Assembly (NCBI GenBank): GCA_947588605.1
Contig: CANPYK010000001.1
Location: 1 to 64,000 of the forward strand
Direction: 5' to 3'
DNA length: 64,000 nt
From: an uncultured Oscillospiraceae bacterium
Lineage (GTDB): Bacteria > Bacillota > Clostridia > Oscillospirales > Oscillospiraceae
Under the pieces are notes generated by a model. That model did no database searches, had not been told where the DNA came from, and worked only from the letters and a program-made list of their open reading frames with translations. How positions within the stretch are numbered: the first letter of the stretch is position 1; each line of letters starts with the position of its first letter. A program made the position numbers and the translations under genes. This document shows, piece by piece, positions 4,971-61,705 of this stretch.

Positions 4971-6512
4971 GTGAAGGAGAAGAAGAAAAACCCGGCGGTC
5001 ACGGTGGGGGTGATGATGGGCATCACCCTCGGGGGGAAGGTGCTGGGGCTTGTCAGGGACAGGCTGTTGACGGTGAATTACGGCTCCGGCAGCGAGGCCA
5101 ACGCCTTTTTGACGGCAAGCCGCATCCCACGGGTGTTTTTTGACACCGTTTTTGCCTCCGCCATCTCCGCGTGCCTCATCCCCGTGCTGGGGGAGGTGCT
5201 GACGAAGCGGGGGAAGCGGGACGCCTTCCGGTTTGCCGGGAACTTCATGACGGTGATGGGGGTGCTGTGCGCCGTGCTCACGGCGCTGGGGACGGTGTTC
5301 GCCCCGCAGCTCACGGCGCTCTTTGCCGACGGGTACGACGCGGAGACGGCGGCGCTGTGCGCCGACCTCACGCGGATCATGATGCCCACGGTCTTCTTCA
5401 CCGGCCTTGCCTTTTCCTTCGTGGGCATTTTGCAGACCTTTGACGAATTCAACATCCCCGCCGCCATCAGCCTCATCTCGAATCTGGCGGTCATCGTCTA
5501 CTACGTGACGCTCAACGACCGGTACGGCATCACGGGGCTCGCCGTGGCGTTTCTGGCGGCCTGGGCGCTCCAGGCGCTGGTGCAGATCCCGGCGCTGTGG
5601 AAAAAGGGGTTCCGGTTCCGGCCCTCCCTGTCCCTCCGAAACGACGACATGAAAAAGGTGGGGCGGCTTCTCCTGCCCGTGATGGTGAGCACCTGGGTCC
5701 TGCCCATCAACCAGACGGTGAACTCTAAGTTCGGCTCCCGGCTCTTCGACGGGGCGGGGGTGTCCGCCGTGGAGCACGCCTACACGCTTTACACCGTCAT
5801 TGCCGGAGTATTCGTGCTGTCCGTCACCAACTACGTCTTCCCCCGGATGTCCAAGGAGTCCGCCGCCGGGGAGGCGGGGACGCTGCGGCAGACCCTGCGG
5901 GACACGCTCCACACCACGCTTTTCGTGGTGGCCCCCATGACGGCGGGGCTGGCGGTGATGGCGCGGCCCCTGGTGGCGTTCATCTTCGGCGGGGGAGAGT
6001 TCGGGGATTTCTCCGTGTCCATCACCTCTCGGGCACTGAGTATCATGGCCCTGGGGATGGTGGGGTACGCCGTCCAGGCGGTGGTCTCCCGGGCGTACTT
6101 TGCCGGCCAGTCCGGGAAGACGCCGCTGATCGCCGGCGCCGTCTCCATCGCGGTGAACGCCGCGCTGTGCGCGGTGCTGACGCCGCTCTGGGACGTGGCG
6201 GGGATCGCCGCCGCCTCGGCGGTGTCCTTCACCGTCAACGCCCTGGTGCTGGCCTTGCCGCTCCGGCGGCGGGGGCTGGGGTTCCTGGATAAGGCGTTCA
6301 TGCTGGACATGGCCAAGCTCCTGGCGGCCACGGCCCTCATGGCCGCCGCCGTATGGGGGGTCATGGAGCTCCTGGACGGGCGCGTGGGGAAGCTTTTGGC
6401 GCTCCTTGTGCCCGCCGCCGTAGGGGTGGCGGTGTACGCCGCGCTGACTGTGATCATGAAGGTCCCCGAGACGAAGACCGTGATGGGGGCCGTGAAGAAA
6501 AGATTGAGGTGA
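4971..6512 (+). CDS. murJ: Lipid II flippase MurJ (MviN family)
   Basis: Multi-span membrane protein that flips undecaprenyl-linked peptidoglycan precursors across the membrane. The 513 residues are almost continuously hydrophobic, in line with the 14-helix MOP fold. Family-like stretches include the N-terminal GKVLGLVRDRLL and FGSRLFDGAGVSA in the middle. Starts at GTG 4971 after AAAGAGG. It is first in a transcript continuing into an O-antigen-ligase-like gene and glycosyltransferases only 4 bases on, so a flippase for another lipid-linked glycan cannot be excluded. Confidence 0.88.
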   Translation: MKEKKKNPAVTVGVMMGITLGGKVLGLVRDRLLTVNYGSGSEANAFLTASRIPRVFFDTVFASAISACLIPVLGEVLTKRGKRDAFRFAGNFMTVMGVLCAVLTALGTVFAPQLTALFADGYDAETAALCADLTRIMMPTVFFTGLAFSFVGILQTFDEFNIPAAISLISNLAVIVYYVTLNDRYGITGLAVAFLAAWALQALVQIPALWKKGFRFRPSLSLRNDDMKKVGRLLLPVMVSTWVLPINQTVNSKFGSRLFDGAGVSAVEHAYTLYTVIAGVFVLSVTNYVFPRMSKESAAGEAGTLRQTLRDTLHTTLFVVAPMTAGLAVMARPLVAFIFGGGEFGDFSVSITSRALSIMALGMVGYAVQAVVSRAYFAGQSGKTPLIAGAVSIAVNAALCAVLTPLWDVAGIAAASAVSFTVNALVLALPLRRRGLGFLDKAFMLDMAKLLAATALMAAAVWGVMELLDGRVGKLLALLVPAAVGVAVYAALTVIMKVPETKTVMGAVKKRLR

Positions 6513-6516
6513 CCTT

Positions 6517-7923
6517 GTGAAGGAAATATTCAAGCACAGCCTCATCGTCCGGGGCCTTACCGCCGCGGCGGGGTGGATCGACCGCCAGTGGCGGAAAAGC
6601 TGGCTGGCGCTGGCCCTCACCGGCTCCGGCGTCGCGCGCGGGGGGTCGCTGGCGGGAAAAATAGGCCACGGCGTCCACGAGGGGCTGTGGCGGGTCTTCC
6701 ACGCCCTGCGGCTGGACAGGCTCTCCGAGGGGTCCGTTTTTACGAAGGAATTTTTCTGGCTGGGGCTGACGGTCTTCCTGGCCCCGCTCCTGCCCACCAT
6801 GGCGGTGCTGGCGCTGGCGCTGATCGCCATGGGCTCCGTGGCCCTGGGCTACGCCCGGGACCGGGGGAGAAGGGCGATGTACTCCCCGGTGAAGAAGTGG
6901 TTCGTGGCCTACGGCCTGGTGTACGCCGTCTCGGCGGCCTTTTCGCTGGCGCTGGAGAGCACGGCGAAGGCCGCGCTGATGACCGTGACCTTCGCCCTTT
7001 TCGCCGTGGCGATGCTGGACACCCACCGGACCTGCGCCGACGGAAAGCGCCTTGTCACCCTGCTGGTGGCCGGCGGGACGCTGGTGGCGGGATACGGCAT
7101 CCTCCAAGCGGTCCTGGGAGGCGAGACTTCGGCCAAGTGGATCGACGAGAGGCTTTTCAGCGACATTTCCACGCGGGTGTACTCCACCCTGGACAACCCC
7201 AACATACTTTCGGAGTATCTTCTGCTCATCATCCCCCTGGGCGTGGCGCTGGCGGTCAACGCCAGGACCGCCAACGGGCGCATTGCGGCGCTCTTCGCCA
7301 CGGCGGTGATGGTGGGGTGCATGTTCCTCACCTGGTCCCGGGCCGGATGGGTGGGGCTGCTGGCGGAGCTGGCCCTTTTCCTGGTGCTGATGGACAGGCG
7401 GTTCCTTCTGCCGGGGCTCCTGTGCGCGGCGGTGGGGGTGGCGGCCCTGCCCCAGGGGATCCTGGACAGGCTCCTGAGCGTGGGGTCCATGGCCGACAGC
7501 TCGGCCTACTACCGGTTCAGCATCTGGACGGGCACCATGCGGATGCTCCGGGATTGCTGGCTGGCCGGGGTAGGCCCCGGGGCCTTCTCCGTGATCTACC
7601 CCCAGTATTCCCTGAACGCCGCTATTGCCAAGCACGCCCACAACCTCTATTTCCAACTGATGTGCGACTCCGGTGTTCTGGGCATCCTCACCTTCGGCGG
7701 GCTTGTGGGGTCGGCCCTGAGGGCCGCCGTGGGGGCGATCTCCCGCGGGGCGGAGAAGGAGCGGCGCGTCCTGCTCCTGGCCCTGCTCTCCGGCGTGGCC
7801 GGGTTCCTGCTCCAGTCCGTGGCGGAGTACAGCTTTTATAATTACCGGGTCATGCTGGTATTTTTCATCGTCATCGGCCTCATCGGGGCCCTGTCGGCAA
7901 GGGAGACGGAGGGAACGGCATGA
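6517..7923 (+). CDS. O-antigen ligase/polymerase-like membrane protein
   Basis: Predicted multi-span membrane enzyme of the Wzy/WaaL type that joins or polymerises lipid-linked glycans outside the membrane. The 468-residue protein carries features usual for the family: TWSRAGWVGLL in a membrane segment near residue 270 and the external-loop region GVGPGAFS...KHAHNLYFQL near residues 350-380, whose His residues are normally conserved. Its GTG start lies 4 bases after the murJ stop, and its stop overlaps the next start in ATGA, so it is translationally coupled. The exact polymer is unknown; CsaB downstream suggests a secondary cell-wall polysaccharide. Confidence 0.8.
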   Translation: MKEIFKHSLIVRGLTAAAGWIDRQWRKSWLALALTGSGVARGGSLAGKIGHGVHEGLWRVFHALRLDRLSEGSVFTKEFFWLGLTVFLAPLLPTMAVLALALIAMGSVALGYARDRGRRAMYSPVKKWFVAYGLVYAVSAAFSLALESTAKAALMTVTFALFAVAMLDTHRTCADGKRLVTLLVAGGTLVAGYGILQAVLGGETSAKWIDERLFSDISTRVYSTLDNPNILSEYLLLIIPLGVALAVNARTANGRIAALFATAVMVGCMFLTWSRAGWVGLLAELALFLVLMDRRFLLPGLLCAAVGVAALPQGILDRLLSVGSMADSSAYYRFSIWTGTMRMLRDCWLAGVGPGAFSVIYPQYSLNAAIAKHAHNLYFQLMCDSGVLGILTFGGLVGSALRAAVGAISRGAEKERRVLLLALLSGVAGFLLQSVAEYSFYNYRVMLVFFIVIGLIGALSARETEGTA

Positions 7924-21987: not shown

Positions 21988-23014
21988 ACCGCACGGTCCC
22001 GCACGATGGATACCGCTTCGGCATCCGACCTTCGCTTCCCCCCTGCCCCCCTCCTATGAGGAGGGGGCGAAAAGAGGTTTGCGCCGCTTTGCGGCGCATT
22101 CTTTGATTTGCCCGCGCGGCGGGGACGGGGGATGTGGGACGGGCGGGTTTGGAACCCGCCCCTACAGTTTCAAATCACGTTCATTCTACGCCGTACGGGC
22201 CGCCGCCCACGGCGGCCCACGCTGCGGGGTTCGGGTTGCCCCCGATGAACGCCGTAGGGGCCGCCGTCCCCGGCGGCCCGCGTCTCGATAACCTCCCATA
22301 TCGGTTGAATGGGATAACCTTCCATATCCCCTGTAGGGGCGGGTTCCAAACCCGCCCGTGCCACGTGGCGGGACGGGAACGGTTTCGATAAAACGGTAAA
22401 CGTCAGCCAACGAAAAAGGGCCGCCGTGGGCGGCGGCCCGTACGGCGTTGATTGGAACGGGTCAAGTATCGAAGGGCGGGTCGCCCGGGAGGGCGACCCC
22501 TACGGCAGTGTTTATACCCTGCGGGTCGTCGGGACCGCCCTATTATCCCACGCTCGCTACCCCCCTGCCCCCTCCTACGAGGAGGGGGCTTAAAAAGGTT
22601 GCGCCGCTTTGCGGCGCAATTTTTTATAAACGCGGCGCGAAGCGCCGCAACCTTTTTTTAGCCCCTCCCAGGTCGGGGACAGCCGCGAAGCGGCAGGGGT
22701 GGTGACGCGGCGCAAGCCGCGTTCCTTTCCTCCTCGCGTGTGCGGATCGCAGCACCACCCCGGCGCTTCGCGCCACCCCGACCTTGGAGGGGCAAAAGAG
22801 GTTGCGATAACGGAACAGTTCCGAAAAAACGCACCCGCCTCCGTTACGGAGCCCCCTCCTCGTAGGAGGGAGGCAGGGGGGTAGCGAGCGTGGGTTGACA
22901 GACCGGTTCCGAGAAAACAGAAAAACAGTGGTCAACGAGGGGCGTGTTGCCGACTACTCAAATTTTTTGTTTTTTTACGGCACATTTTGTTTTGCCGGGG
23001 GATATTACGGGTGA
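21988..23014. repeat. GC-rich intergenic mosaic repeat cluster
   Basis: About 1 kb without a convincing gene. It holds several copies of the repeats seen elsewhere: GGGTTTGGAACCCGCCCC-type hairpins at about 22138-22167 and 22332-22359; GGGCCGCC...GGCGGCCC modules at about 22195, 22250 and 22420; a GGGTCGCCC module near 22483; the GCCCCCTCCTCGTAGGAGG hairpin at about 22035, 22555 and 22850; and TTGCGCCGC/GCGGCGCAA stems near 22080 and 22605. Small frames here cross these hairpins and are rejected. Confidence 0.8.
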
Positions 23015-23041
23015 ATGGCCATTCGGAAGGGAAGTGAGACG

Positions 23042-24085
23042 GTGACGCGGGAGGAATTTGGGCGGGCGGTGGAGCTGTATGGCGACATGGTCTACCGGGT
23101 GGCGTTCAGCGCCCTGGCGGCGGCGCTGGCGGTGTGCGTGCTTACCGGCACGGCCCTGGCGGTGAGTCCGGAGCTGCGGGACCTCCTGTGGGGCGGCTTT
23201 GAGCCGGTGGTCCAGCGCTTCGAGCCAGATGTGGAGAACACCCAGGTCCTCAACGGCATCGAGGCGCGGCTGACCTCGGCCATGACGGACGGATTTCTGC
23301 TCAAGGCCCACGTGGAGCTGCGGGATACGACGGACGCGGACAGGGTGAGGAGCGCTTATGAGGCCCGTGACACCGATGAGCAGGGGAATTTCGGCTGCTT
23401 TACGAGTATGGAGATCCTGAGTCCCTCGGGAGGCGTCGGGGACGCCTTTGAGGGCGATGTGATGGTGAGCGGAGGAGCCCGGGTCGTGGGCTTTGACGAT
23501 GAGGCCGGCGTGCTGACGGTGGAGCTCACCCTCCGGTCCTTCAATCCCCCGGAGGGGGCGGACCGGGTGGCCGTTTTCATCTCCGAGGACATTTTGGAGG
23601 TCCTGAAGGACAGCCGGTACCAGCTTGCGAAGTTCGGCGTCACCCCCGAGGACCTTGAGGAGCTTTCGAAGACCCCGGAAGAAAGCGAGCCCACGTCCGG
23701 GGAGTCCGGCATCACTGTCGGGGAGCCCTCAAAGACGCCGGAGTGGTTTGTGCCATCCGACGCCAAGACGCTGTCCGGCTGGGGGCTCACCGCCGATATC
23801 GAAGTGCTTCCCACGCGCAGTGCCCGGGCCGGCGACCTGGAGGTGGTCCTCTCCGACATCGGACTTGCCGTCCGGGGGAGCGCGGAGGACGCCGGGACCG
23901 TCCACGGCGGGGCGGTCATCCTCACCTTCTCGGACGGGTCCGTCTCCGATGCCGGCCTTCTCCTGGGCGAGCAGAACGGCGGCGTGGGGGACCGGGCGGT
24001 GCGGAACATCGACTTCTCCGCCCCCATCGACGCTGACACGGTGGTCTCCGTCACCGTGGGGGACCGGACGCTGGTGTTTGCGTAA
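23042..24085 (+). pseudogene. Probable sigma-factor N-terminus fused to anti-sigma/DUF4179-type C-terminal region
   Basis: A 347-codon frame. The first 22 or so residues (TREEFGRAVELYGDMVYRVAF) read like the start of an ECF sigma factor, then the frame passes directly into a membrane helix (ALAAALAVCVLTGTALAV) and an external domain beginning SPELRDLLWGGFEPVVQRF, which looks like the anti-sigma partner usually encoded next. The simplest explanation is an in-frame deletion joining two adjacent genes. The external part carries a Ser/Thr/Pro/Glu-rich segment near residues 215-250. GTG 23042 follows AAGGGAAG by about 8 bases. It may still make a membrane protein, but not a working sigma/anti-sigma pair. 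Confidence 0.6.
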
Positions 24086-24156: not shown

Positions 24157-24393
24157 TTACTTCTTGAAAATGCCCTTGACCTTGTCCATGACGCCGCCGG
24201 CGGCGGAGCCCAGCTCGTCTAAGGAGATCTTGGCCTTGACGCCGTCCACGATCTTGGAGACGGCGTCATCGGGGAGGTCCACGCCGACCAGCTTTTCTAC
24301 GGTCTTGACGGGCTCGTCCTTGAACTCCTGGGCGAGCTTGCCGTCGGACTTGACCTTGGAGACGACCTCCTCGATCTTTGCCTTGATGTCCAT
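24157..24393 (-). CDS. Small helical protein of unknown function
   Basis: Not assigned. The 78-residue, Lys/Asp/Val-rich protein is probably all helical and has no signal peptide. The middle (EFKDEPVKTVEKLVGVDLP) resembles segments seen in small clostridial proteins and, distantly, NHLP-type leader peptides; the end, SAAGGVMDKVKGIFKK, has a double Gly before a basic amphipathic tail. No peptide-modifying enzyme or exporter is nearby, so a leader role is unsupported. GGAGGAGG precedes the start at the end of the upstream yegP-like gene, with which it is co-transcribed. Confidence 0.7.
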   Translation of the reverse strand: MDIKAKIEEVVSKVKSDGKLAQEFKDEPVKTVEKLVGVDLPDDAVSKIVDGVKAKISLDELGSAAGGVMDKVKGIFKK

Positions 24394-24842: not shown

Positions 24843-25550
24843 TTAATAGGTGAAATTTCGTTTGGGATCGGAGAAATCCTCCAACCGGGCGCGGTAGGCG
24901 TCCAGGGCCTCCTCCTCGAAGAGGAGCTTGGGGTCCTCCACGCCCATGAGGCGCAGAAGCTCCTTGGCGAAGAGGGGATTGAGCACCGTCAGGGGGCCGA
25001 TGAGGTAGGTGGCCATGAAGTTGCCGATCCTGACGCCCTCGGGCTTTACGTCCGGGTTGAGGCCCGCGCCGCGAAGGGTGGTGAAAAGCCCCTCTCCCAC
25101 GTCGCCCCAGGAGTGGCCGAACTGGCTTTTGAAGCCCACGATCTTCAGATCCCCGTAAAGCCCCAGGTACATGGCGTTATACCGCCCTAAAAGCCGCCGG
25201 GTGGAGTGGATGGGCAGGAAGCCCAGCATGGGGAGCCTTTCGCCGCCGTCCAATTCGATATATTCGCCGAAGATCTCCAGGGCGTTGCCGGTGACGAGGG
25301 TGACGCCGCCCGCGTCGGTGCGTTTTTTCAGCGCCTCCAGGTGCGGCGCCAGGGCGTCGCGCACAAGCTCCTGGCCCCGCTCGGTGACGGAGCCCATGTA
25401 GACCAGCGCCACGTCCTCGGTGGTGAACCGGGGCGTGTCCCGCAGGCCCGTCCGCACCACCTCCGCCCCGGAGGACCGGGCCAGGTATTCCACGTTCATC
25501 AGGTCCCCGTAAAGGTTGCAGACCTCGGGGTAAAGTAGCTCGATGGTCAT
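24843..25550 (-). CDS. gatD: GatD-like glutamine amidotransferase subunit lacking the catalytic Cys and His
   Basis: Partner of MurT in the lipid II isoglutaminyl synthase, which amidates the D-Glu of peptidoglycan stem peptides. The 235-residue protein aligns with GatD along its length: CNLYGDLMN near residue 11, EGVRIGNFMATYLIGP near 171-186. The nucleophile elbow, ICGGYQ in GatD, reads VTGNALEIFG at 86-95 and contains no Cys; the catalytic His of TYLHGP is Ile184. The only Cys is Cys11, outside the active site. So it should not hydrolyse glutamine. The frame is intact and overlaps murT by ATGA, so this looks like a conserved change of function rather than decay. Confidence 0.85.
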   Translation of the reverse strand: MTIELLYPEVCNLYGDLMNVEYLARSSGAEVVRTGLRDTPRFTTEDVALVYMGSVTERGQELVRDALAPHLEALKKRTDAGGVTLVTGNALEIFGEYIELDGGERLPMLGFLPIHSTRRLLGRYNAMYLGLYGDLKIVGFKSQFGHSWGDVGEGLFTTLRGAGLNPDVKPEGVRIGNFMATYLIGPLTVLNPLFAKELLRLMGVEDPKLLFEEEALDAYRARLEDFSDPKRNFTY

Positions 25551-26947
25551 CGTTTCGCCTCCTTCGCCAGCGCCAGGACCTTTTGCCGGACCTTGAAGGC
25601 CAGGTCCAGGGAGTCGTCGGCCCCGTAGAGCAGGTACACCGAGGAGCCGGGGCGCAGATAGAGCTTCTCCGCCGCCTCAAATTCGTCCCGGGCGTAGTCG
25701 ATCTGCCCGTCCTGTATCCCCGCCAGCTTCAGCCGCAGGAGGTAGTCCTTCCCGCGGGGGCCGGTGGCGATGACATGGATGCGCGGGTCGGCTAAAAACT
25801 CGAAGTCCGCGTCATAGAGCCAGCAGACGTTCTCCGACCAGTGGCGCTCGTCGGAAAGGCAGTTCATCAAAAGCAGGATCTCCTTCTCCCCCGGCCGGGA
25901 GGCGATGTAGTCGAAGACCCGTGAGCAGGCCAGGGCGTTGAGGCCCTTGGCCATCTGGTTGATGACGTGGACGCCGTTGACCTCCTCGTCGGTGTGGCGG
26001 GTGCCCACCACCCGCGTCTCGGAAAGGCACCGGCCGATCTCTTCATGGGTCATGCCGAACTCACGGAGCATGGCCACGGCGGCCACAAGGTTATAGATGT
26101 CGAAGACGCTGTCGGAGATGAGCCGGTAGGTCCCCGCCCCGCTCTTGTCCCGGACGGTGACGGACATGGCCTCCAGACTGGCGTCCGCGCCGGCGTAGTC
26201 GTAGGCCGGGGACTCAAAGCCGCACTCCCGGCACCGGACGCGGCCGATGTGGTGGTAGCGCAGGTAGTCGTAGGTGAGGGGCCCCGCGCATTTGGGGCAA
26301 ATGCGCATATCGTTAAGGCGGTTGACGCATTCGGTGATGTCCGTGGTCATCCGCTCGATGCCGAAATACACGCGATCGTTGTCCGGCGCCACGGCGGAGG
26401 AGATGAGGTCGTCGGCGTTGAGCACCAGCCGCGTCTCCTTGGGAATGTAGCGGGTGAGGAAGTCGGCGATGTACTGCGGGTGGGCGTTGCGCATGATGGA
26501 GTCCCGGAAGAGGTTGGTCACCACCATGATCTCCGGCGTCAGGTGCGGGAAGATGAGCCGGGAGGAGCGCTCGTCGATCTCCAGCACCGCCACGTCGCTG
26601 TGACAGCGGTTGAGGAGGCTCGTCCCCGTCAGAAGCGCCGTGGCCACGCCGGGGTACATGTTGGACCCGGCCCGGTTGCTCAGCACCTTATGCCCCGCCG
26701 CCGTCAGCGCGTCGCACAGGAGATTGGTCACCGTGGTCTTCCCGTTGGTGCCGGTGACCGCCAGAATGCGCGCGGGCTTGTCGATATACCGCAAAAACGA
26801 CGGGCAGATCTTCATCGCCAGCTCCCCGGGGAAGTTGGTGCCGTTGTGCCGCGTCAGCTTCAGCACCGGCACCGACAGCTTCGCCGCCCACAGCGCCAGC
26901 GTAAATTTAAACCACATAAGCCCCCTGGGCTTTTCCTTCGTACCCAT
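25547..26947 (-). CDS. murT: MurT-like Mur ligase, lipid II isoglutaminyl synthase subunit
   Basis: ATP-dependent Mur ligase-fold enzyme that activates the D-Glu alpha-carboxyl of lipid II for amidation. The 466-residue protein has the P-loop VTGTNGKTTVTNL near residues 63-75, the inserted zinc ribbon with two Cys pairs (CPKC and CREC near 215-240), and the C-terminal DUF1727-type domain ending at a cluster of charged residues. AGAAAGG precedes ATG 26947. It overlaps gatD by 4 bases. With GatD lacking its nucleophile, MurT would need free ammonia or another donor, or the pair has a changed role. Confidence 0.9.
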   Translation of the reverse strand: MGTKEKPRGLMWFKFTLALWAAKLSVPVLKLTRHNGTNFPGELAMKICPSFLRYIDKPARILAVTGTNGKTTVTNLLCDALTAAGHKVLSNRAGSNMYPGVATALLTGTSLLNRCHSDVAVLEIDERSSRLIFPHLTPEIMVVTNLFRDSIMRNAHPQYIADFLTRYIPKETRLVLNADDLISSAVAPDNDRVYFGIERMTTDITECVNRLNDMRICPKCAGPLTYDYLRYHHIGRVRCRECGFESPAYDYAGADASLEAMSVTVRDKSGAGTYRLISDSVFDIYNLVAAVAMLREFGMTHEEIGRCLSETRVVGTRHTDEEVNGVHVINQMAKGLNALACSRVFDYIASRPGEKEILLLMNCLSDERHWSENVCWLYDADFEFLADPRIHVIATGPRGKDYLLRLKLAGIQDGQIDYARDEFEAAEKLYLRPGSSVYLLYGADDSLDLAFKVRQKVLALAKEAKR

Positions 26948-26994: not shown

Positions 26995-27023
26995 ATTGTA
27001 AACCAAAAGTGTGGAAAATGCAA
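26995..27023 (-). promoter_or_regulatory. Predicted promoter of murT-gatD
   Basis: Minus strand TTGCAT (27023-27018), 17-bp spacer, TACAAT (27000-26995), about 40 bases before the murT start. Confidence 0.72.
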
Positions 27024-27595
27024 CAAAAATGTATGGGCCGCCGTCCCCGGCGGCCCGCCTGATGATTATTGACACATACCGAACAACGGCTTTCCCGTCA
27101 CGCAACGTGCCACGGGCGGGTTTGGAACCCGCCCCTACAGGAAATATGGAAGGCTATCCCATTCAACCGACATCGGAGGTCATCGAAACGCGGGCCGCCA
27201 AGAGAGGCGGCCCCTACGGCGGGGATTGAGCGCAATCTGGAAAATGTAGGGGCGGGTTCCAAACCCGCCCGTCCCTCGTCCCCCGTCCTTCGTCCCCCGT
27301 CCCCGCCGCGCGGGCAAATTAAAAACCGCGGCGAAGCCGCAACCTTTTTAAGCCCCCTCCTCGTAGGCGGGGGGCAGGGGGGTAGCGAGCGTTGGTCGAT
27401 AGAGCGCTATCGTCCAACCTTCGATCCCTCAGTCTCGCTTCGCTCGACAGATCCCCTTACGAAGGGGAGCCTTTTCGGCGCTTTGCGCCGCCTTTTATAA
27501 AAAATTGCGCCGCAGTGCGGCGCAAACCTTTTTGGTAGGGGCGGGTTCTAAACCCGCCCGTGCCTTGTCTCCCATCAATTTGGTTTTCTGTATTT
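27024..27595. repeat. GC-rich intergenic mosaic repeat cluster
   Basis: No gene seen. Contains GGGCCGCC/GGCGGCCC modules near 27032 and 27190, three GGGTTYNRAACCCGCCC-type hairpins at about 27112-27142, 27246-27271 and 27535-27563, the GCCCCCTCCTCGTAGG block near 27352, and a TTGCGCCGC-type stem with following CCTTTTT near 27496-27535. Confidence 0.8.
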
Positions 27596-39939: not shown

Positions 39940-40265
39940 CCGGGGGTGGGGGACCGCTCTGTCATCTCACGTTCGCTGCCCCCCTGCCCCCCTCCTACGA
40001 GGAGGGGGCGAAAAAGGATGCGGCTTCGCCGCGGATTTTATTATCCGCTGCGGCGGGGACGAGGGGACGAGGGGACGGGCGGGTTTAGAACCCGCCCCTA
40101 CAGTTTAAATTGCGTTCAATCAACGCCGTAGGGGCCGCCGCTGCTGGCGGCCCGCGTTGCGGGACGGAGTGGTTCCGATAAAACGGCACCCGCCCCCGTC
40201 TCGGAGCCCCCTCCTCGTAGGAGGGGGGCAGGGGGGAAGCGAGCGTTGGATGTGAGAGAGATATC
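39940..40265. repeat. GC-rich intergenic mosaic repeat cluster
   Basis: No gene seen. Holds the GCCCCCTCCTACGAGGAGG hairpin in both orientations (about 39972-40008 and 40205-40240), a GGGTTTAGAACCCGCCCC hairpin at about 40078-40098, and a GTAGGGGCCGCC...GGCGGCCC module at about 40128-40155. Confidence 0.8.
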
Positions 40266-40292
40266 AAAAAAAGGCGGGTTCTAAACCCGCCC
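40266..40292 (-). terminator. Dispersed GGGTTYNRAACCC repeat acting as terminator of the toxin-antitoxin operon
   Basis: Minus strand reads GGCGGGTTTAGAACCCGCC then seven T residues, 5 bases after the antitoxin stop. Confidence 0.75.
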
Positions 40293-60850: not shown

Positions 60851-61705
60851 AGAAATGTTGTGGAAAAGTTTCCGAATCATCGTACCCGCTCCGTCTCAGA
60901 GCCCTCCCCGCAGGGCGGGGAGGGGGAGGGGTGAGGTGGGAGCCGAAGGGCTTAGGGCAGTTGCGATGAACGGACCTACCTCATCCGGCGCCTGCGGGCA
61001 CCACCTTCCCCGCCCTGCGGGGAAGGCTAGGACGGGGACTCGAATACCCCGCCGCTGCGGCGGCACCCCTTTTTCCGAAAAAGGGGTCGGGGGAATATGG
61101 TTGCGGCGCTACGCGCCGCGTTTATAAAAAATTGCGCCGCATCGCGGCGCAAACCTTTTTAAGCCCCCTCCTCGTAGGAGGGGGGCAGGGGGGGAAGCGA
61201 AGGTGGGATGACAGAGCGGTATCGTTGAACCACAGGTTATAAACACCGCCGTAGGGGTCGCCGTCCCCGGCGACCCGCCCATCGACCATTGACACGTCCC
61301 GAACAACGTCGCATGGGCCGCATCTCCGCGCTAAGAGCCGCCGCTGCGCGGCGGTTGCGCTCCGAAACGCGCCTGCGGGCGCAGGCCCACGGCGGCCCAT
61401 GCCTCCGATAACCGATATGTACCGTTTTATCGGAACCGCGCCCGTCCCGCAACCGCGCACGGGCGGGTTTGGAACCCGCCCCTACAGGAGAAGTGGAAGG
61501 TAATCCCATAAAAACGACATGGGAGGTTATCGCAACGCGGGTCGCCGAGGACGGCGACCCCTACGGCGTTTATCGGAGACAATCTAAGCCCTGCAACGTG
61601 GGCCAACCTGGGCGGCGGCCCGTACGGCGGTGATGGAAGGTCATTTAGAAACTGTAGGGGCGGGTTCCAAACCCGCCCGTGCCCCGTCCCCCGCAGGGCA
61701 TCCCC
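60851..61705. repeat. GC-rich intergenic mosaic repeat cluster, second copy of the 1-416 repeat
   Basis: No gene seen. 60885-61208 matches 76-416 in order and sequence with scattered differences. Then come GTAGGGGTCGCC...GGCGACCC (61250-61278), a nested hairpin module at 61316-61385 that is the inverse of 56118-56183, two GGGTTTGGAACCCGCCC hairpins (61461-61487 and 61653-61680), and GGGTCGCC/GGCGACCC near 61537-61562. Confidence 0.8.

Follow-up and report, generated by a model that had tools for sequence, protein, structure and literature searches.

The closest described system is the GatD/MurT lipid II isoglutaminyl synthase, which is represented by structures from Staphylococcus aureus (6gs2, 6h5e), Streptococcus pneumoniae (6fqb), and Streptococcus pyogenes (9sq9). 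In S. aureus, Cys94 and His189 of GatD and Asp349 of MurT make up a putative composite catalytic triad (PMC6113224), and mutants at these three positions showed lost or severely lowered activity (PMC6113224, PMC5871853). The catalytic Cys of the GatD elbow has disallowed backbone angles, and Arg128 of the same protein takes part in glutamine capture (PMC5871853). MurT of S. aureus alone is inactive and needs GatD even with NH3; in the laboratory mutant C94G, where GatD is present without glutaminase, glutamine-dependent activity was lost and NH3-dependent lipid II amidation at pH 8.5 was unaffected, and ammonia works at pH 8.5 only, not at 7.5 (PMC3266927). MurE/MurF and the pseudomurein ligases share the fold and the ATP-dependent activation of a carboxyl with MurT, but what they attach is an amino acid, and they lack a GatD partner. 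Human carbamoyl phosphate synthetase I also retains a class I glutaminase domain that is dead, and runs on free ammonia; it differs in being an unrelated synthetase with fused domains and a Cys to Ser change.

A murT-gatD pair was analyzed in the window, which is the whole 64,000-nucleotide stretch of DNA under study. The features of the pair and of a repeat found in the window are listed below.

24843–25550, minus strand: gatD, a Cys-less GatD of type A, 235 amino acids (open reading frame, AlphaFold2 model, structural match, dN/dS)
25547–26947, minus strand: murT, the Mur-ligase partner, 466 amino acids (Pfam, phmmer, and structure matches)
25284–25292, minus strand: former nucleophile elbow of GatD, codons 87–89 (T-G-N), with Gly88 at the S. 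aureus Cys94 position (alignment of 251 GatDs)
24999–25001, minus strand: gatD codon 184, Ile at the His189 position (alignment)
25829–25831, minus strand: murT codon 373, Asn at the Asp349 position (SENVCW), in the loop replacing DNAAD (6gs2 alignment)
25182–25184, minus strand: gatD codon 123, Arg, the kept equivalent of S. aureus Arg128 (alignment)
26732–26752, minus strand: intact P-loop of MurT, GTNGKTT, residues 66–72 (alignment)
26222–26299, minus strand: intact zinc ribbon of MurT, cysteines 217, 220, 239, and 242 (98–100% in all groups)
22142–22356, 27115–27269, 40078–40291, and 61462–61677: sites of the GGCGGGTTTGGAACCCGCCC repeat

Both genes were intact and overlapped by 4 bases. 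Pfam analysis of the murT product revealed MurT_C and Mur_ligase_M, both above cut-off, and phmmer matched it to S. aureus MurT (6gs2_B) with an E-value of 4e-47; the GatD match to S. aureus GatD (6gs2) had an E-value of 8e-11. The NCBIfam equivalog cut-offs were missed by far by the GatD/MurT pair (46.6 of 450 and 180 of 800 bits). The good promoter that the preliminary description had assigned to the pair could not be upheld, as the sole above-threshold site of the promoter scan (24834–24806) belongs to the downstream gene. A candidate promoter, TTGCAT-17-TACAAT, could be seen by eye upstream of murT at 27023–26995 with 8/12 matches, and a strong AAGGAGG is located approximately 7 bases ahead of the gatD ATG.

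The surroundings of the pair showed several further features. In the ORF at 23015–24085, the first approximately 34 residues of a sigma-factor-like protein are fused to the membrane portion of an anti-sigma-like one; its counterpart in the related locus L185 consists of two genes (6612–7103 and 5461–6615), and the fusion is due either to a deletion or to an artefact of assembly. A 78-amino-acid ORF at 24157–24393 scored 21.7 bits against NHLP RiPP leader peptides, a weak match below the cut-off of 50.9. The murT-gatD locus itself is a mosaic, of which the core (approximately nucleotides 150–1650 from the murT start) is 80–88% identical to locus L192 and both ends are 90–92% identical to L185, a pattern that suggests recombination of the murT-gatD allele. 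Nine copies of the MITE-like GGCGGGTTTGGAACCCGCCC repeat, against 0 expected by chance, were present in the window, mostly as opposite-strand pairs 135–196 bases apart.

Alignment analysis of the pair revealed that the entire composite triad of S. aureus GatD/MurT, Cys94/His189/Asp349, is absent in the window, where it reads Gly88, Ile184, and Asn373. Loss of the two GatD residues had been recognized before; the third change, in MurT, was not in the preliminary description. The GatD elbow reads LVTGNALEIFG in place of the canonical (I/V)CGG(Y/F)QLLG, and TYLIGP replaces TYLHGP. In MurT, the Asp349 of the S. aureus motif RDTSW (6gs2 numbering) lies where the window has ENVCW, and Asn373 was invariant in alignment A4. 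Three Cys-less types, A (that of the window), B, and C, could be distinguished among 251 non-identical GatDs, an unevenly drawn sample with 76 canonical and 175 Cys-less proteins. The Cys94 position was occupied by Gly in 97–100% of types A–C and by Cys in 100% of canonical proteins, the His189 position by an aliphatic or small residue in types A–C and by His in 97% of canonical proteins, and the Asp349 position mostly by Asn in types A and C, mostly by Glu in type B, and by Asp in 100% of canonical proteins. The remade elbow is itself conserved, as TGN[A/S]xE in types A and B and as TGT or TGS in type C. Gly at the Cys94 position fits the disallowed backbone angles described for the catalytic Cys (PMC5871853).

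Apart from the triad, most of the synthase is retained. The window pair resembles the described enzymes in operon order, GatD fold, MurT domains, the gate Tyr and Asp, and the Arg128 equivalent; it is unlike them in the replaced triad and in the rebuilt DNAAD loop. The P-loop and zinc ribbon were intact in the alignment, as previously noted, and the Mg/ATP residues of the window MurT are kept. Across all groups the P-loop Thr, Asn85 (S. pneumoniae numbering), Glu108, Asn267, and the zinc cysteines were conserved at 94–100%, except that type C alone has Ser for the P-loop Thr. In every Cys-less type, the MurT loop on which canonical enzymes bear DNAAD and Asp349 has been rebuilt and lengthened. 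The Arg128 equivalent was found in 96% of type A and in 100% of type B and canonical proteins, and was lost in type C. The AlphaFold2 model of the window GatD (pLDDT 96.6) has the strand-turn-helix elbow in place, and its best structural match was S. aureus GatD (6h5e_A; Z 26.5, 227 residues aligned, 2.5 Å). Solved GatDs gave Z scores of 25–26.5, compared to 16.4 for the next family, the HisH type; the GatD fold is fully kept. The MurT model had a pLDDT of 86, with MurT structures as its top matches. The dN/dS of gatD against close relatives was 0.16–0.36, showing that the gene is under purifying selection.

The source genome (2.34 Mb, 99.84% complete) contained one MurT and one GatD, and the second gatD that had been proposed as a check was not found there; the other GATase match (L003) was HisH with Cys and His intact. 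A scan of named genomes yielded 488 relatives, the nearest being rabbit-gut Oscillospiraceae MAGs, and the loss proved common to hundreds of independent genomes. Named Cys-less members include Sporobacter termitidis (the cultured strain DSM 10068, with a single MurT in its genome), Eubacterium limosum, and Atopobium parvulum. Sequencing error or decay in a single genome was ruled out by the 488 relatives, the cultured strains among them, and purifying selection. In an even sample of the order, MurT was present in 80 of 297 genomes, with 25 canonical, 55 Cys-less, and none having both; one genome (G027) was counted as canonical through its MurT since its gatD lay outside the locus, and the co-occurrence counts ignore relatedness and are suggestive only. 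Types A and B share families with canonical pairs, yet never one genome of this sample. In the family of Bacillus subtilis 168, murT/gatD is almost absent. Two close relatives of the window (L195:3929–8258 and L199:3977–8226) carry a gatD1-murT1-murT2-gatD2 cluster with two different Cys-less pairs.

Phylogenetic analysis was conducted on concatenated MurT and GatD. In these quick, unrooted trees without bootstrap and with long branches, two changes of Cys state were needed in Clostridia when the trait columns were removed, and after addition of Actinomycetota one branch (SH-aLRT 99) parted 69 Cys-less pairs, from Clostridia and Coriobacteriia, from 53 others. Three Cys-state changes suffice, one deep, one actinobacterial (L342–L345), and one recent Cys to Ser change (L173). 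Loss of Cys was assumed as the direction, given that other class I amidotransferases carry Cys. Later independent changes were seen within the canonical group (L168, L172, L173, L342–L345), comprising His to Asp with Cys kept, Cys to Ser, and, in two actinobacterial groups, Cys to Gly, with His still present in one of these groups. Judged from its sequences, the Cys-less clade is large, ancient, and lineage-wide in gut bacteria. The earlier reading of this locus stands for the residue loss and changes in scope: the locus is no oddity of the source genome but belongs to an ancient clade whose MurT has altered along with GatD.

Three explanations had been offered for the locus, namely use of free ammonia, action on a different substrate, and a structural role of GatD, and all three are still live options. 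To the reading ranked as most likely, about even confidence is given: GatD would be a pseudo-glutaminase and the obligatory partner of an ammonia-fed MurT, with amidation placed ahead of amino-acid ligation. The complex would be an ATP-dependent ligase of a cell-wall precursor, in which GatD is retained as a structural or allosteric scaffold and the ATP-dependent carboxyl activation by MurT persists; its nitrogen would most likely be supplied by free ammonia, so that the wall would contain D-isoglutamine. It is presumably catalytically active, with D-Glu of lipid II as the probable acceptor and ammonia as the probable nitrogen donor. The natural protein carries the substitution of the S. aureus C94G mutant (PMC3266927), so by analogy a Cys-less GatD could in principle support amidation; the window form differs in being natural and ancient and in having lost His and Asp too. 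The presence of types A and B or canonical pairs one per genome fits a replacement in the same role. HisH of the source genome keeps its catalytic residues and a glutamine synthetase is present; other glutamine metabolism is thus normal and the loss specific to MurT/GatD, and a genome-wide loss of glutamine use was rejected given the synthetase. Several observations count against ammonia use: the pH 8.5-only activity in S. aureus, the Arg128 equivalent kept at 96–100% in types A and B, which is needless for pure ammonia use, the remodelled MurT loop, by which acceptor or donor may differ, and the two Cys-less pairs of L195 and L199, which would be odd if both just made D-isoglutamine.

In B-type walls of the Schleifer-Kandler scheme, the D-Glu alpha-carboxyl bears an amino acid and not an amide. 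The serious rival, possible though rather unlikely, is that an amino acid instead of ammonia is attached to this carboxyl by the Cys-less complex in the manner of Mur ligases, which would make the B-type branch at least in type C. The wider claim, that the clade would be a new enzyme adding an amino acid to the D-Glu alpha-carboxyl of the wall precursor, and so the missing ligase for B-type and perhaps other gut-bacterial walls, with GatD as a binding subunit, is slightly more doubtful. Type C (VTGTTVA, FTNTLGP) was found in E. limosum ATCC 8486 (G611), which holds 42 MttB homologues as published for this species, and B2alpha walls are given for the genus Eubacterium in PMC11382707, although it is the sole member linked to B walls by a cited source. 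Type C occurs beside a canonical pair in one genome (G569) and beside type A in two, which argues against mere replacement; the loop rebuilt in all Cys-less types and the side-by-side pairs of L195 and L199 also favor amino-acid ligation. Another type C genome is probably Acetobacterium woodii, whose wall is B-type. In contrast, A. parvulum (G979) has an A4alpha wall, and its Cys-less pair falls with type A in the tree, which argues that not all members serve B walls and counts for the ammonia reading; B-wall presence was compared in two organisms, positive for E. limosum and negative for A. parvulum. The loss of Arg128 in type C also weighs against ligation of an amino acid, as no binding site for it could be identified.

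Supply of ammonia in trans by a separate glutaminase, which GatD merely docks, is improbable: further intact glutamine amidotransferases such as HisH exist in the genome, but no candidate is linked to the locus, and the neighboring genes that relatives conserve encode a tRNA methyltransferase and an 8-oxoguanine glycosylase. Catalysis by a migrated nucleophile is very improbable; type B often contains an NKCS motif with its Cys and has a His two positions ahead of the former one, but type A has no conserved Cys or His, the best being C11 (28/42) and H146 (30/42). C11, correctly described as the sole Cys of the window GatD, was rejected as a replacement nucleophile because just those 28 of 42 close relatives have it. 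A non-catalytic regulator or inert relic, as three lost catalytic residues might suggest, is scarcely credible given ligase residues kept clade-wide, purifying selection, and intact genes in hundreds of species.

No report of the Cys-less GatD clade was found in the open-access literature searched, where it is apparently undescribed, and the word "cysteine" is absent from a 2025 MurT/GatD tree paper (PMC11915815). MurT/GatD is essential in several Gram-positive bacteria, and its glutaminase is what defines it as a drug target; for these genes in a large gut clade, the label "glutamine-hydrolysing" is wrong. Amidation of D-Glu in the clade may hinge on ambient ammonia or give way to another group, and the unknown ligase of B-type walls gains a concrete candidate in the Cys-less MurT/GatD clade.
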